Below, piece by piece: positions 56,822 through 64,000 of a stretch of DNA of 64,000 nt (positions are counted from its first letter, which is position 1; each line of letters starts with the position of its first letter). The position numbers were made by a program, and so were the translations under genes. This DNA comes from Nocardioides baculatus (lineage in GTDB: Bacteria; Actinomycetota; Actinomycetes; Propionibacteriales; Nocardioidaceae). Location: assembly GCF_016735675.1 (NCBI RefSeq), contig NZ_JAERSG010000008.1, positions 1-64,000 on the forward strand. Reading direction: 5' to 3'. The notes below the pieces were generated by a model, which was not told the origin of the DNA, made no database searches, and saw only the letters and a program-made list of their open reading frames with translations.

Positions 56822-57202
56822 GTGATCCGGACGTGGTGGGCGGTGGCCGCCCTGCTGGCGCTGTTCGCCATGCACGGCCTCGCGACCCATGCCGCGGCTG
56901 CAGAGCCACCCTCCCCGTCAGGGATGCACGGGACGCACCATGTGCTCGACGCGCACGGCGAGGCCGCGGGCTCCGCGCTGCCCCCGACCGCGCACGGCGG
57001 CGACCACCACGCGATGTCCGTCCTCGGCCTCTGCATGGCTGCCCTGGCGACGACCGCGATCGCGCTGCTCGCCCTCGCCCGTCCCGGTCGCGGGCTGCTC
57101 GCGCTCCTGCCGCGGGCGACCACCGTCGCGTCGCGCGCCGTGGGAGTCGTCCGGGCTCCCGCACCACCGGACCTCCACGCCTTGTCGGTCCTCCGCTGCT
57201 GA
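56822..57202 (+). CDS. DUF6153-family membrane protein
   Basis: Protein of 126 residues with two hydrophobic segments: residues 5-25 (signal or anchor) and about 63-85. Between them is a His/Met-rich loop (SGMHGTHHVLDAHG, HGGDHHAMS) well suited to bind copper. The family is typically encoded next to a DUF305 gene, as here. It may collect copper at the outer membrane face. Metal binding is inference from composition. Confidence 0.75.
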   Translation: MIRTWWAVAALLALFAMHGLATHAAAAEPPSPSGMHGTHHVLDAHGEAAGSALPPTAHGGDHHAMSVLGLCMAALATTAIALLALARPGRGLLALLPRATTVASRAVGVVRAPAPPDLHALSVLRC

Positions 57203-57212
57203 GGAGGGTCGC

Positions 57213-57230
57213 GCCTGCGCACACGCAGGC
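57213..57230. other. Hairpin between the DUF6153 and DUF305 genes
   Basis: Seven-base arms GCCTGCG and CGCAGGC with a CACA loop, 11 bases after the DUF6153 stop. It may trim the transcript or be a regulator site. Confidence 0.4.
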
Positions 57231-57274
57231 ACCGACCCACCACCAGACGGACACCGACCGACAAGGAGACACCT

Positions 57275-57910
57275 ATGTCCGCACACCGCACCATGCGAGC
57301 GCGCCTCGCAACCGCTGCCGCGCTGCCACTCCTCCTCGCCACCACCCTCGCGGCTTGTGGCGATGACACGACGGACGAACGGCCGGCCGCCGTCCGCACC
57401 GCCTCGAACGGCGACCGCTTCAACGACGCCGACGTCTCGTTCGCGACCGAGATGATCCCGCACCACGCCGACGCCCTGGTGATGGTCGACATGACCCAGG
57501 GCCGCGAGCTCTCGCCCGAGATGACCGACCTCACCGAGGACATCCGCGCCGCGCAGGCACCAGAGATCGAGCAGATGGCCGACTGGCTGACTGCCTGGGG
57601 CGAGGACGTCCCGGAGACCTCGCGTGACCACGTGAACAGCCACGACATGGGCGACATGTCCGACGACACGGGCGGCGGAACGGGGATGGGGATGGACCCC
57701 GACGACCTCGCCGCGCTCGAGGACGCCTCCGGCATCGCCTTCGAGCAGATGTGGTTGCAGATGATGGTCGAGCACCACGAGGGTGCGATCGAGATGGCGC
57801 AGGACGAGCAGGCCGATGGCCTGGCCGACGACGCCGTGGCGCTCGCCGACTCGATCGAGAGCAGCCAGACGGCCGAGATCGACCGGATGGAGGAGCTGCT
57901 CGACCAGTGA
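57275..57910 (+). CDS. DUF305-family lipoprotein, probable copper handling
   Basis: Lipoprotein of 211 residues: signal peptide with lipobox LAAC, Cys at about 28. The DUF305 (ferritin-like) domain has FATEMIPHHADALVMVD and LQMMVEHHEGAIEMAQ, repeated helices with Met, His and Glu suited to metal binding. A Met/Asp/Gly linker (HDMGDMSDDTGGG) lies between the halves. Ribosome site AAGGAG. Members sit beside copper-resistance genes, as here (DUF6153 upstream; CopC-CopD 4.5 kb away). Confidence 0.88.
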   Translation: MSAHRTMRARLATAAALPLLLATTLAACGDDTTDERPAAVRTASNGDRFNDADVSFATEMIPHHADALVMVDMTQGRELSPEMTDLTEDIRAAQAPEIEQMADWLTAWGEDVPETSRDHVNSHDMGDMSDDTGGGTGMGMDPDDLAALEDASGIAFEQMWLQMMVEHHEGAIEMAQDEQADGLADDAVALADSIESSQTAEIDRMEELLDQ

Positions 57911-58012: not shown

Positions 58013-60691
58013 ATGAGCGACGGGAGCGACGGCATGGTGACGAACGAGGGTGACTGTCGGGTCGTCGTGGTCGGCGCCGGCGCCGGCGGTGCGCTGGTCG
58101 CGACCCACCTGGTGACCGCCCTGTCCTCGCGCTTCCGCGTCGAGCTCGTCGACCCGGCGCCGACGACCGGTCGCGGGCAGGCATACTCCACCACGGACGA
58201 CCGTCACCTCCTCAACGTCCCCGCCTCTGGCATGACCGCCTTCCCGCGCGATCCCGAGCACTTCCTGCGCTGGCTGCGCAACCACCACGACCCGAAGTTC
58301 CAGCCGCACGAGTTCGCACCGCGCGCCGTCTTCGGCCGCTACGTCGAGAGCCTGCTCACGACGGCGACCGAGTTCCCCGGCAACGCCCGGCTCGTACGCC
58401 GCCAGGCCGAGGTCGTCGACATCTCCGAGGCCGGCGGCGGCTTCGTCGTCGAGCTCTCGGACGGCGACCGGATCGAGGCGCGGGCCGTCGTGCTCGCGAC
58501 GAGCAGCAAGCCGGGCACCGGCTGGGCGCCGGCCGAGCTGGCGGACGACCCCCGGCTCATCGCCGACCCGTGGACGCAGCCGATCCCCGAGGTCGGCGAC
58601 GTGCTGATGCTGGGCTCGGGCCTCACGATGGTCGACCTCGTGATCAGCGCCGACCGGCCCGACCGCACGGTCCACGTCGTCTCGCGCACCGACGCGGTGC
58701 CGCACCCGCACGTCCTCCCCACCACTCCCCCGGTGCCGCCGCCGCCCGGCGTCACCCGGATCCAGGACCTCGACGCGCTGCGGTCCACGATCGCCGCGCA
58801 CGTCGACACCACGGTCGAGGCGACCGGCGACTGGCGCGCCGCCATCGACGGGCTCCGCCCGGTGACCGCGCAGCTGTGGCGCGGCCTGCCGGAGGCCGAC
58901 AAGCGGCGCTTCATCGCCGAGGACGCCCGCAGCTGGGACGTGCACCGCCACCGGATGGCGCCGGCGACCGCCCGCCGCTTCGACGCGATCGCCACCGCCG
59001 GCCGGCTCCAGCGCCACCGCGGCACCATCGCCGCCGTCCGTGCGGGCGACCACGCCCTCCACGTCACCCTCGACGACGGCACGGAGCTCCGCGTCGCCGC
59101 CGTCGTCAACTGCACCGGTCCGGTCGGCTCCATCGCCGCCGACCCGCTGATGACGCGCCTCGCCCAGACCGGACTCGTCCGCCCCGGCCCCGCCGGGCTC
59201 GGCATCGACACCGCCGACGACGGCCGGATCCTCGGCACCCTGCCGGAGCACCTCCCCTTCCTCGCCGTCGGCTCGCTGCGCCGCGGCAACCTGTGGGAGT
59301 CCACCGCGATGCCGGAGATCCGTGAGCAGGCCTATGACGTCGCGCGCGTCGTCAGCCGCTCGATGCACGGCGAGTCCCGGCGCCGGCCGGTCGACCCCTA
59401 CGGCCTCACGCTGTCCACCAGCGCCGACGCCGCCGAGCGCTACAACGCCGCGCTCGGTCGGCTCCTGCGGCTCCAGGACGGTGTCGAGGACGGCCTTGCT
59501 GCTGCGGTCGCCGAGGACGAGGGCTTCGTCCAGGCCCACGCCGCGCTAGCCCTCCTGGGCCACGAGTGGGGGACGAACAACCACTGGCAGGCCTCGCTGC
59601 GCGCCGCCCACCGGGCCGCCGCCGAGCGCCACCTCGACGACCGCGAGAGCTCCTTCCTCGACGCCGTCACCACCCGCCTCCGCACCGACGAGGCCACCGG
59701 CGCGGCAGCCCTGCTGCGCCACGTCCGCCTCTTCCCGCGCGACGCCCTCGCCGTCAGCGTCGCCGTGCCGACGGTGGCCTTCGGCGGCCTCACCAGCGGT
59801 AGCCAGACCGCCGCGCTCGTCGAGTCGCTCGGCCGCTCCTACGGCGACGACTGGTGGTACGCCGGCCAGCTCGCGTTCGTCCGCCAGGACCAGGAGCGCT
59901 GGGCCGAGGCCGAGGAGCTGGCGTCCTACGCCCTCTCGGTCGAGCCCGCCTCCGGGCATGCGGTCCACGCCCGCGCGCACGTCTTCTACGAGACGGGTGA
60001 CCACGTCGCGGGCCTGGCCTGGCTCGACGAGTGGATCCGCTCGCGCGGCCCCGAGGCCAACCACCGCTCGCACTTCTCCTGGCACGCGGCCCTCCACGAG
60101 CTGATGCAGGACGACGTGGAGGCCGTACGCCGTCGCTACGCCCGCGAGCTCGCGCCCTCCGTCGTCAGCGGGAGCCGGGTGGTGGTCGACAGCGGCGCGC
60201 TGCTGTGGCGCGGTCGCGTCACCGGCGCGTGGACCGACGACCTCCCGGTCGGTGAGGTCCGCGCGCAGGCACCGACCGAGTGGCTCACCGCTCCCCCGAC
60301 GCCGTTCGCGGCGATGCACAGCGCTGTCCTGCTCGCCGCCGACGGCGATGCGGCCGCCCTCTCCCGCCTGGCCGACGAGTCGGCGCGGCACGAGGACCGC
60401 GTCTTCCGCGACGTCGTCGCGCCCCTGTGCGCCGGCCTGGTCTCGGTGGTCGAGGAGCGCTGGAACGCCGCGTCCGCGACGCTCACCTCGGTCGTCGCCA
60501 CGATGGCGCCGCTCGGCGGCAGCAAGGCGCAGCGCGAGGTCGTCGAGGACACCCTGGTCTTCGCGCTCGCCATGGCCGACCGCAACGCGGAGGCCGCGGC
60601 GGTGCTCGACGAGCGGCTCTCCCGCCGCTCCTCGGCGCTCGACGCCCGTCGTCGGGCGGCCGTGGTCGCCGGTGTGCCCGCGGGTCGCTGA
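58013..60691 (+). CDS. Fusion of FAD/NAD(P)-binding domain and TTC38-like TPR domain
   Basis: Single uninterrupted frame of 892 residues. Residues 16-455 are an FAD/NAD(P)-binding protein: VVVVGAGAGGALVATHL (dinucleotide loop), GRGQAYST, HLLNVPASGMTAFPRDPEHFLRWL (in parts), second loop MLGSGLTMVDLV, and NCTGPVGS. Residues 465-890 match the TTC38 family of TPR-like proteins: GLTLSTS, AEAEELASYALSVEP, HARAHVFYETG, SHFSWHAALHELMQ and VDSGALLWRGRVTG. No frameshift or stop marks the junction. Substrate unknown; ATG at 58034 is an alternative start. Joining these two families is unusual to my knowledge. Confidence 0.88.
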   Translation: MSDGSDGMVTNEGDCRVVVVGAGAGGALVATHLVTALSSRFRVELVDPAPTTGRGQAYSTTDDRHLLNVPASGMTAFPRDPEHFLRWLRNHHDPKFQPHEFAPRAVFGRYVESLLTTATEFPGNARLVRRQAEVVDISEAGGGFVVELSDGDRIEARAVVLATSSKPGTGWAPAELADDPRLIADPWTQPIPEVGDVLMLGSGLTMVDLVISADRPDRTVHVVSRTDAVPHPHVLPTTPPVPPPPGVTRIQDLDALRSTIAAHVDTTVEATGDWRAAIDGLRPVTAQLWRGLPEADKRRFIAEDARSWDVHRHRMAPATARRFDAIATAGRLQRHRGTIAAVRAGDHALHVTLDDGTELRVAAVVNCTGPVGSIAADPLMTRLAQTGLVRPGPAGLGIDTADDGRILGTLPEHLPFLAVGSLRRGNLWESTAMPEIREQAYDVARVVSRSMHGESRRRPVDPYGLTLSTSADAAERYNAALGRLLRLQDGVEDGLAAAVAEDEGFVQAHAALALLGHEWGTNNHWQASLRAAHRAAAERHLDDRESSFLDAVTTRLRTDEATGAAALLRHVRLFPRDALAVSVAVPTVAFGGLTSGSQTAALVESLGRSYGDDWWYAGQLAFVRQDQERWAEAEELASYALSVEPASGHAVHARAHVFYETGDHVAGLAWLDEWIRSRGPEANHRSHFSWHAALHELMQDDVEAVRRRYARELAPSVVSGSRVVVDSGALLWRGRVTGAWTDDLPVGEVRAQAPTEWLTAPPTPFAAMHSAVLLAADGDAAALSRLADESARHEDRVFRDVVAPLCAGLVSVVEERWNAASATLTSVVATMAPLGGSKAQREVVEDTLVFALAMADRNAEAAAVLDERLSRRSSALDARRRAAVVAGVPAGR

Positions 60692-60697
60692 GCCACC

Positions 60698-60835
60698 ATG
60701 CTCCAGGACGCGCTCAGCACCGTGGCGATCACCACGATGTTCGCCCTCGCGATGGTCGAGCTGCACGTGGAGCTCGTCGCGGGCGGCGCTGCGTGGCTCG
60801 CGGCCTGGTGGCTGCTGCGGGAGCAGTCGGCCTAG
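60698..60835 (+). CDS. Small hydrophobic protein (45 aa)
   Basis: Starts six bases after the fusion gene: MLQDALSTVAITTMFALAMV, then a second hydrophobic run AGGAAWLAAWWLLREQSA. It probably forms one or two short membrane helices. Its TAG begins the -10 hexamer of the next gene. No family recognised; coding status plausible given position and composition. Confidence 0.45.
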   Translation: MLQDALSTVAITTMFALAMVELHVELVAGGAAWLAAWWLLREQSA

Positions 60836-62426: not shown

Positions 62427-64000
62427 TCAGGGCACCTCGAACGTCACCGTCTGCACGGGGTTGTCGAACTCCGTCGTGCGCAGTGACACCTGGACCTCCC
62501 ATGTGCCCGCGGTGGGCAGCACGACGTCGCCGGAGTAGATGCCCGGGCCGAGGTTGGTCAGCGACACGGCGCCCAGGTCGACGTCGTCGGTCGACAGGCT
62601 CATCCGGGGAGCCTCGTGGCCCTCTGCGGGCTGGCCGGCCTCGTCGGTCATGGTGAGGGTGAGGGTGGCCGGCCCGACGCCGAGCGGCTCGAGGGTGACC
62701 TCCCCGGTGATGTCGTCGAGCTGCACGGAGTCCGAGCCGGTCCCCGTCGAGGACGACGCGACGGCCACCGTCGGCTCCGGGCTGCGGTCGACCAGGAACC
62801 CGGTCACCAGCAGGACGGCCAGCAGGACCGCGGCCTCGGCGTACGTCGTCCGCACCACGGACGCGGCCGCGGTGGTGCGCTCCGCCGTACGGTCTGCGCC
62901 GCGCAACCGCGGCAGGAGGGCGAAGCGGTTCCACGCGGCGATCGCCACCGCCACCAGGACGACGAGGATCTTGACGATCAGGAGGGTGCCGTAGGTCGTG
63001 TCGAGCAGTGCGTCGAGCGAGCCGGCCACGCGCCACGCCATCACCGAGCCGGCCACGACGAGCACCGCGAGGATGCCCGCCGCCCAGGTCGAGAACCGCG
63101 ACAGCACCACGGCTGCCGTCTCTCCACGCCCGGACAGGTCGCGCAGCACGAGCGCGAGCGCCACCAACCCCCCGAGCCACAGTGCGCCGGCGGCGAGGTG
63201 CAGCACGTCGACCGCGATGACCAGCGCCTCCGGCGACGTGGCGCGGGTGTGCCCGGTGAGGGACGGCGCGGCCAGCGCGACCGCGCAGCCGCCGAGGACG
63301 AGGCCGCGGCGCGCACCCAGCGTGAGCGCGAGCCCCACGGTGACGGCGGCCGGGACGACGTACTCCCCGAGGGCGAGTGCCGACCACGTCGACCCGTCGC
63401 CGAGGGCCGATGCAGCGAGCCCGAGCTGGTAGAGCGCGACGAGCGGCACCGCCGCCCACCACGCCAGCACCGCGACGACCGCGGCGAGACGAACCGTGCT
63501 GCGCAGTCGACGGCGGGCGCCCTCGACCGCGGGGTCGAGCGGCAGGAAGAGCGCCGAGAAGCCGGCGACGCCCGCGGCGACGAGCAGGCCGACGTAGGCC
63601 AGCCAGCGGACCACGCCCAGCAGCACGGGCGCATCCGTGTCGGTGTCGGACGACGTGGGCACGTCGACGACGTCGCTGGGAGCGCCGACGGAGAAGCTGA
63701 GCGAGCCACCGATCGGGTGGCCGTCCGCCGAGACCAGGCGCCACACGACGACGAGGGTGCCCTCGTCGACCTCGCCGTCGAGGGAGACGATGAGCTGGGC
63801 GTCGCGCACCGTGGCACTCGAGGCGATCTCGGTGCCGGTGGCGTCGAAGACGGTGATCCCTGCCGGCACCCCGATCACGGACTCGTTGAAGCTGAACGTG
63901 ACCTGCTCCGGCGCGGTCTCGAGGACCGCACCCTCGGCCGGGTCGGTGGCGATGAGGGTCGCGTGCGCAGCCGCCGGCGGCGCCGGCGCCAGCACCAGGA
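62427..64000 (-). CDS. CopC-CopD copper resistance protein, 5' end beyond the window
   Basis: Partial: the frame is open to the window edge and the visible N-terminus is the end of a signal peptide (LAPAPPAAAHATL), so the start lies outside. After cleavage, HATL gives the N-terminal copper ligand His. The CopC domain (about 100 residues) ends with SADGHPIGGSLSF. Eight or so helices of CopD follow (VDVLHLAAGALWLGGLVALA). The C-terminal 110 residues are a periplasmic beta domain (LTMTDEAGQPAEGHEAPRMS). It moves or stores copper across the membrane. Converges with the Lys/Ala-tail gene. Confidence 0.92.
   Translation of the reverse strand, partial: LVLAPAPPAAAHATLIATDPAEGAVLETAPEQVTFSFNESVIGVPAGITVFDATGTEIASSATVRDAQLIVSLDGEVDEGTLVVVWRLVSADGHPIGGSLSFSVGAPSDVVDVPTSSDTDTDAPVLLGVVRWLAYVGLLVAAGVAGFSALFLPLDPAVEGARRRLRSTVRLAAVVAVLAWWAAVPLVALYQLGLAASALGDGSTWSALALGEYVVPAAVTVGLALTLGARRGLVLGGCAVALAAPSLTGHTRATSPEALVIAVDVLHLAAGALWLGGLVALALVLRDLSGRGETAAVVLSRFSTWAAGILAVLVVAGSVMAWRVAGSLDALLDTTYGTLLIVKILVVLVAVAIAAWNRFALLPRLRGADRTAERTTAAASVVRTTYAEAAVLLAVLLVTGFLVDRSPEPTVAVASSSTGTGSDSVQLDDITGEVTLEPLGVGPATLTLTMTDEAGQPAEGHEAPRMSLSTDDVDLGAVSLTNLGPGIYSGDVVLPTAGTWEVQVSLRTTEFDNPVQTVTFEVP

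Follow-up and report, generated by a model that had tools for sequence, protein, structure and literature searches.

TTC38 is conserved from bacteria to humans, and its presumed family entry in the Conserved Domain Database (CDD) is cd05804, which we take to be the StaR-like entry, to place StaR in a glycopeptide cluster, and to carry a remark on a possible flavoprotein. Among the titles and abstract openings listed in searches of the openly licensed PMC literature, none concerned a tested activity of TTC38. Among flavin enzymes, PMC10404684 describes the active site of the L-aspartate N-hydroxylase FzmM, with Asn62 above the flavin, Trp51 packed on the flavin, and Arg13 together with a set of Arg and Asn residues binding aspartate. 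In the FzmM and CreE pathways, as outlined in PMC10404684 and PMC7347517, a second enzyme takes on the reactive product of the monooxygenase. Here, we analyzed a gene of Nocardioides baculatus that joins a predicted relative of FzmM (N half) to a TTC38-like helical half (C half). It lies in the first 64,000 nucleotides of contig NZ_JAERSG010000008.1 (assembly GCF_016735675.1), a stretch that we refer to as the window. The fusion is a conserved actinobacterial enzyme.

58013..60691, forward strand: fused gene, frame open for 892 residues and then a stop, with the ATG at 58034 as an alternative start

The original prediction, made from the letters of the window, had placed a flavin adenine dinucleotide (FAD)/NAD(P)-binding half and a helical half in this one frame, and the open frame, Pfam, and structure models agree with it. 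All the motifs it listed are present, both in the N half (GAGAGG, residues 21 to 26; LLNVPA, 66 to 71; MLGSGLTMVD, about 199 to 208) and in the C half (GLTLSTS, AEAEELASYALSVEP, HARAHVFYET, FSWHAALHEL, and DSGALLWRGRV). A Pfam scan of the 892-residue protein matched PF13454 (FAD-NAD(P)-binding) over residues 18 to 164 with 147.2 bits (cutoff, 21.8 bits), whereas residues 456 to 892 matched zero families above the cutoff and the fused protein matched zero NCBIfam models above theirs. The GC content by codon position (0.77/0.53/0.96) has the pattern of a real high-GC gene. By eye, GGGAG precedes the second ATG, at 58034, which may be the actual start.

Far from being an isolated case, the fusion proved to be widespread in the Actinomycetes. 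Among 58 relatives surveyed, it was found in 13 of 37 genomes of the genus, including the window's own and one (G017) in which it is split by a frameshift, and in a genome from another family of the same order (G041). A scan of named genomes placed both halves in one frame in 79 of the best 80 of 383 loci, a share that overstates the fused fraction of the wider family, these 80 being the nearest relatives of the C half; the sole exception (L092) has the C half alone. Fused loci came from Nocardioides, Streptomyces, Frankia, Amycolatopsis, Kribbella, and others, and copies in named Nocardioides genomes are up to 95% identical across the C half. When 197 genomes were drawn evenly from the class, 36 proved to have a relative of the N half at E ≤ 1e-30. 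Of 30 loci fetched from this draw, 14 were fused (the window's included), 1 was apparently frameshifted (L173), and 15 had no in-frame C half, although 2 of these end at a contig edge. The C half was detected at E ≤ 1e-3 in 9 of 296 genomes of the phylum, the window's own included, with three of the nine matches weak. Twenty plasmid records carried a C-half relative, and the 10 opened comprised 2 Streptomyces fusions and 8 stand-alone genes (7 from Pseudomonadota and 1 from Streptomyces). Because 13 of 37 genus genomes and 79 of the best 80 named loci carry the fusion, it is neither an assembly artifact nor a chance event, and the named-genome scan and the class draw rule out restriction to Nocardioides. 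We found no study of this fusion among the titles and abstract openings listed for the openly licensed PMC literature. Broken copies also occur: a frameshift splits the C-terminal part of the fused gene in L006 and L056 (G017; Nocardioides sp. zg-1230), and the copy in G038 lies in several pieces with stops.

The two halves have different histories. A tree of 57 C halves requires two changes of the fused label, of which one is forced by well-supported branches, and stand-alone Nocardioides copies nest inside the fused group (support, 89/94); the simplest reading is one gain of the fusion and one later split. A quick tree of N halves requires eight label changes, of which six are forced (one forced change rests on the frameshifted L173), indicating that the N half can exist alone in several lines. 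Most stand-alone N rows of the genus fall outside the fused group of this tree while the C rows fall inside theirs, which leaves fission of one fused gene unsupported as the source of the unlinked halves. Among the 24 genus genomes without the fusion, 10 carry both halves unlinked, 3 only the C half, 3 only the N half, and 8 neither (Fisher P = 0.04, uncorrected for kinship), a co-occurrence that is suggestive.

What makes the fusion valuable is its C half: this helical family has no name, its histidine cluster is invariant, and the flavin partner makes it biochemically approachable.

59378..60688, forward strand: C half, residues 456 to 892, predicted (model) tetratricopeptide repeat (TPR)-like helical superhelix
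59966..59992, forward strand: H652 and H656 (57/57 C halves) and E660 (53/57), in helix 648 to 661, at TPR positions 5, 9, and 13
60071..60085, forward strand: H687, W690, and H691 (57/57), in helix 685 to 698
60188..60211, forward strand: D726 (55/57) and R733 (57/57), in helix 721 to 736
60317..60319, forward strand: H769 (57/57), in helix 764 to 777
60515..60538, forward strand: GGSxAQRE block, residues 835 to 842, at the start of helix 838 to 854, with seven conserved positions 89 to 100% identical

Modeled alone, the C half is predicted to form helical hairpins arranged in a superhelix (predicted local distance difference test [pLDDT], 93.8; predicted template modeling score [pTM], 0.90). 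In fold comparison it comes closest to TPR proteins, for example a Rap regulator (Z score, 16.6; root mean square deviation [rmsd], 4.6; 309 residues); for repeat proteins, such a match means little beyond a shared arrangement. Pfam TPR models stayed under their cutoffs (TPR_16, 16.5 versus 32.7 bits; TPR_19, 11.4 versus 25 bits). For conservation, we took 129 profile matches, removed 6 under 330 residues, and thinned the rest to 57 representatives at <80% pairwise identity, which span the Actinomycetota and Pseudomonadota and reach down to 24% identity with the window's copy. Residues H652, H656, H687, W690, H691, A693, L694, R733, H769, G592, and G835 are identical in all 57, although H687, W690, and H691 were imposed on 29 representatives by the search pattern that retrieved L041 to L120, and the profile itself carries the invariant residues and favors rows that have them. 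The other 28, found by whole-sequence likeness without the pattern, agree on H687, W690, and H691.

In the full-chain model, the four helices that bear the cluster (648 to 661, 685 to 698, 721 to 736, and 764 to 777) are the first helices of successive hairpins. In TPR proteins, positions 2, 5, 9, 12, and 13 line the inner, ligand-facing groove, and a profile alignment to consensus TPR proteins puts H649, H652, H656, Y659, and E660 on these positions. Setting the register by a small residue at position 8 and Gly or Asp at positions 15 and 16 places H687, W690, and H691 on positions 2, 5, and 6 and H769 on position 6. An active site would be expected to have such a lining, and a metal is the natural guess. 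Zinc-bound designed TPR crystals are among the matches of the C-half profile to solved structures; no metalloenzyme was recognized among the best 50 fold matches in each of two comparisons, which is not evidence against one. We consider it likely that the C half carries an active site, and judge the chances that the putative histidine site holds a metal to be evenly balanced.

That the C half is instead an ordinary TPR scaffold docking the monooxygenase to a partner protein, with its histidines serving binding and not chemistry, seems unlikely. The Rap-like fold would suit a scaffold, as would the repeated label changes in the N tree, which make the C half dispensable in some lines. However, the invariant positions center on five histidines, a tryptophan, and an arginine across the Actinomycetota and Pseudomonadota at identities down to 24%, which would be unusual for a protein-binding TPR, and the stand-alone relatives adjoin amino acid transport and catabolic genes.

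58052..59377, forward strand: N half, residues 14 to 455, predicted class B flavin monooxygenase fold, FzmM-like (PF13454; from Pfam, model, structure comparison, and profile)
58073..58090, forward strand: FAD-binding loop GAGAGG, residues 21 to 26
58208..58225, forward strand: LLNVPA, with N68 aligned with FzmM Asn62 (over flavin C4a)
58613..58636, forward strand: second dinucleotide loop GSGLTMVD, residues 201 to 208, aligned with the FzmM loop GLGLNFFD
58946..58954, forward strand: R312-H313-R314, identical in 35/35 N domains

In the predicted model, the N half has the fold of a class B flavin monooxygenase related to the amino acid N-hydroxylases. Structure comparison ranked FzmM first (8cp5; Z score, 28.8; rmsd, 3.1; 432 residues; 23% identity), followed by other N-hydroxylases, e.g., PvdA (Z score, 27.3) and KtzI. 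A profile of 35 N domains searched against solved structures matched FzmM at an E value of 2e-23, with the next entry, the reductase FSP1, at 4e-10. A single-sequence search of solved structures gave no match at E values up to 1, and with a first, narrower profile FzmM was absent among the best 60 of 66 matches; the broader profile ranked it first. The N half retains both the FAD- and the NADPH-binding loops as well as the counterpart of FzmM Asn62 (N68, kept in at least 90% of the 35 domains). The Trp51 position is Tyr or Phe. W274 is identical in 35/35 domains, and R275 and R282 are kept in at least 90%; R275, R282, R312, and R314 may play a role like that of the aspartate-binding Arg/Asn set of FzmM. 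Based on these matches, we predict with high confidence that the N half is a flavin monooxygenase. The original prediction had called it a covalent redox partner; its assignment as an FAD/NAD(P) enzyme stands, and the FzmM structure and profile matches make it more than a redox partner. They also rule out the lycopene cyclase, halogenase, and mycothione reductase to which weak Pfam and NCBIfam matches pointed.

FzmM Arg13 aligns with G25, a small residue here, the sequence alignment breaks in the substrate domain, and the aspartate site defined by Arg13 and the Arg/Asn cluster of the large FzmM substrate domain has no match in the N half. Because of these mismatches, the substrate would differ from aspartate and perhaps not be an amine; the chemistry is probably that of an N-hydroxylating monooxygenase whose substrate is not simply aspartate.

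It is improbable that the N half is instead a reductase that feeds NADPH electrons into the C half, where a metal site or a site of another kind would carry out the oxidation. Ferredoxin-NADP and thioredoxin reductases also match its fold, and a metal site in the C half might need electrons. Yet FzmM is closer in identity (23% versus 10 to 17%), in aligned length (432 versus about 290 to 320 residues), and in E value (2e-23 versus 4e-10 for FSP1), and the flavin-covering Asn of FzmM is retained.

We propose that the fused protein is a two-step enzyme in one chain, in which the N half would oxygenate a substrate and the C half would process the product. With FAD, NADPH, and O2, the N half would attack the N or S of a small, probably anionic, amino acid-like compound, turning a small amino acid or amino-sulfonate into a hydroxylamine, oxime, nitroso compound, or S-oxide. 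The histidine cluster on the concave face of the C half, metal binding or otherwise catalytic, would receive this reactive product and rearrange or cleave it. The C half would thus be a tethered second enzyme, an analogue of the separate one in the FzmM and CreE pathways, and the likeliest setting would be sulfur acquisition, with amino-sulfonates or related organosulfur compounds as the source. We built this proposal on the fusion and its spread, the monooxygenase fold seen by model and profile, the kinship with FzmM, the invariance of the histidines, and sulfur genes beside part of the family; from these we infer the metal, the hand-over between halves, the substrate, and the reaction. It is the best explanation that we have, and we give it an even chance of being right. 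The full-chain model reached a pLDDT of 90.5 but a pTM of 0.61, at which the relative placing of the two halves, and with it the orientation of the groove toward the FAD, is of low confidence.

The sulfur setting comes from gene neighborhoods. At 36 fused loci (<75% identity), the recurring neighbor groups were ABC ATPases, Rrf2 regulators, sulfate-type permeases, and sulfate-binding proteins. An Rrf2 regulator lay within 155 bases in 6 of the 36; NCBIfam named the Rrf2 proteins tested at the superfamily level, with CymR the next best and under its cutoff. NCBIfam matches above the cutoff identified CysN/CysC (L065), adenosine 5'-phosphosulfate (APS) kinase (L080), SsuA (L087 and L106), a sulfate-binding protein (L091), CysT (L099), and, at L076, a sulfate permease; matches under it were those of the sulfate-binding pieces at L076 and L093 and of SsuD at L095, and L069 was ambiguous. 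When one fixed set of 20 sulfur proteins was used for scanning, 9 of the 35 fused loci scored versus 1 of 36 control stretches (Fisher P = 0.006), a count that leaves out the window's locus (L001), uses 20-kb controls longer than the loci, and draws on a set partly built from fused loci, with the best query for L080, L087, L095, and L106 coming from the locus itself and favoring it. A role of the fused protein in natural-product biosynthesis of the FzmM/CreE or StaR kind, with coincidental sulfur neighbors, is very improbable: FzmM, CreE, and AlnM work in antibiotic or related pathways according to PMC10404684 and PMC7347517, and a stand-alone relative (L142) lies near lanthipeptide genes, but none of the four recurring neighbor groups is biosynthetic.

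Some stand-alone relatives of the N half were found in similar surroundings. Of 13 opened on plasmids, which were picked for diversity (7 from among the best matches and 6 from a 24-row spread) and have no control set, 7 have named sulfur-acquisition genes within 6 kb (L139, L140, L143, L146, L147, L148, and L150), 1 (L144) has only a TauD/TfdA dioxygenase gene beside an unnamed ABC transporter, and 5 have no sulfur genes. L139 sits behind cysC-cysD-cysN-ssuABC; in the N tree it branches within the fused group, next to L142, a locus without sulfur neighbors. Two further stand-alone N genes, in L133 and L134, have a cysteine dioxygenase gene on one side and a sulfate transporter on the other, and six stand-alone N regions of Nocardioides (L127 to L132) gave no match to the 20-protein sulfur set. 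In a Nostoc plasmid (L146:5920-8226), a 769-residue protein combines an N-half relative with a metallo-beta-lactamase-fold domain of glyoxalase II/sulfur dioxygenase-like type, and its gene is flanked on both sides by sulfonate-binding protein genes; the closest named models to this second domain, hydroxyacylglutathione hydrolase and the sulfur dioxygenase Blh, were both under the cutoff. The presence of such a domain behind an N half suggests that adding a metal-dependent second step is a recurrent arrangement. A very divergent second FAD/NAD(P) protein, 22% identical to the N half encoded in the window, is found in Shinella between an Rrf2 regulator and a sulfate transporter (L140:7894-9207).

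Stand-alone C halves of Pseudomonadota occur in five loci (L023, L024, L025, L026, and L030), at around positions 7.6 to 9.3 kb. Among their neighbors are amino acid permeases or ABC transporters, aminotransferases, the MalY/PatB family, amine oxidase-type flavoproteins, and AraC/LysR-type regulators, a set that by annotation would resemble amino acid catabolism. In Nocardioides, a small Rieske [2Fe-2S] protein with an export-type N terminus (L121:6830-7240 and L123:8388-8873) adjoins a stand-alone C half, and the pair lies in a uvrA-uvrC neighborhood.

Zinc or iron is bound by HDACs, PAH, and FADS, and the oxidoreductase DHRS1 is not known to be a metalloprotein. The C half is a putative member of the TTC38/StaR-like family, which it resembles, and data on human TTC38 bear on the fused protein only on condition that this kinship is real. 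Panobinostat, a hydroxamate, shifts TTC38 in thermal profiling (PMC6885700), and a solubility assay registers a TTC38 response to it in lysate as well as in cells (PMC9118197). A re-analysis of cell data lists HDAC1, HDAC2, TTC38, PAH, FADS1, and FADS2 as recovered panobinostat targets and adds two zinc-finger proteins and DHRS1 (PMC7666118); FADS1 and DHRS1 are termed downstream proteins in PMC9118197. Genetic results link rare TTC38 variants to a rise in urine X-22162, an unidentified metabolite (effect, 0.76; P = 1.9e-22; PMC7878905), and a TTC38 missense variant to X-22162 in a Middle Eastern cohort (PMC5780481). The rise fits the loss of an enzyme, and together with the panobinostat data it fits a metalloenzyme that consumes X-22162. 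The fusion was therefore not the first hint at TTC38 function, as the original prediction had supposed: TTC38 was already an off-target of a clinical drug and tied to the level of a metabolite.

Several observations weigh against a two-step enzyme with a histidine metal site and a sulfur substrate. Beyond the share of invariant residues imposed by the search pattern and the mismatches at the aspartate site, the fusion label switches several times in the N tree, and the N half can stand alone. Panobinostat also shifts DHRS1. In a second sample, drawn from the class, which shares at least two loci with the first, sulfur genes occurred at 3 of 20 loci (P = 0.12 versus the same controls), divided as 0 of 9 fused and 3 of 11 stand-alone, and one of the three (L200) is a weak permease match. 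The fused gene and a sulfate-binding gene are both present in nine genus genomes and close together only in G018; in the window's genome, the sulfate-binding gene and the single sulfonate-binding-like gene are on another contig. Taking both sides together, we find a setting in sulfur acquisition or metabolism about as probable as all other settings combined. The wider claim, that TTC38/StaR-like proteins, the human one included, are TPR-superhelix metalloenzymes with paired histidines on successive inner helices, and that the actinomycete fusion N- or S-oxygenates an amino-sulfur compound and releases its sulfur, is tentative and rather doubtful as a whole.

Downstream of the fused gene, the original prediction had noted a small membrane-type ORF (open reading frame) at a distance of six bases.

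60698..60835, forward strand: membrane-type ORF of 45 residues, 3' of the fused gene, found only in near relatives

This ORF looks real, being kept in relatives and having 98% GC at third codon positions; of 29 loci searched in near relatives, a set in which two genomes count twice, 13 have a similar ORF behind the fused gene. Copper-type genes lie on both sides of the fused gene (56822-57910 and 62427-63995; DUF6153, DUF305/CopM-like, and CopC-CopD), with no tie to it seen.

Compared with described systems, the fused protein stands closest to the L-aspartate N-hydroxylases FzmM and CreE (PDB 8cp2 and 8cp5), with which it shares the predicted class B fold, the FAD and NADPH loops, and the catalytic Asn (Asn62 in FzmM, N68 here). 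Unlike the fused protein, FzmM has no C-terminal helical domain; its Arg13 and larger substrate domain are unmatched here, and Tyr or Phe replaces its Trp51. The PF13454 relatives at sulfur loci belong to the same family as the N half, and several lie beside cysCDN, ssuABC, tauA, ssuD, or sfnB; those opened are stand-alone proteins of about 440 to 515 residues except for the 769-residue Nostoc one, and no functionally tested member turned up in the searches made. The TTC38/StaR-like family (cd05804) presumably shares with the C half its length, its helical repeats, and the H...H and H..WH blocks, and we know of no eukaryotic TTC38 or StaR fused to a monooxygenase. With a monooxygenase of known chemistry as the partner in a natural and widespread fusion, the TTC38 question narrows to a reaction class, a set of residues, and a bacterial protein. 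If the histidine cluster binds a metal, a family filed under "tetratricopeptide repeat protein" would need reinterpretation as a family of enzymes. For the C half, deoxyhypusine hydroxylase offers an analogy: it has HEAT and not TPR repeats and uses His-Glu pairs, and it is a di-iron enzyme in which paired histidines turned a helical-repeat scaffold into a metalloenzyme.

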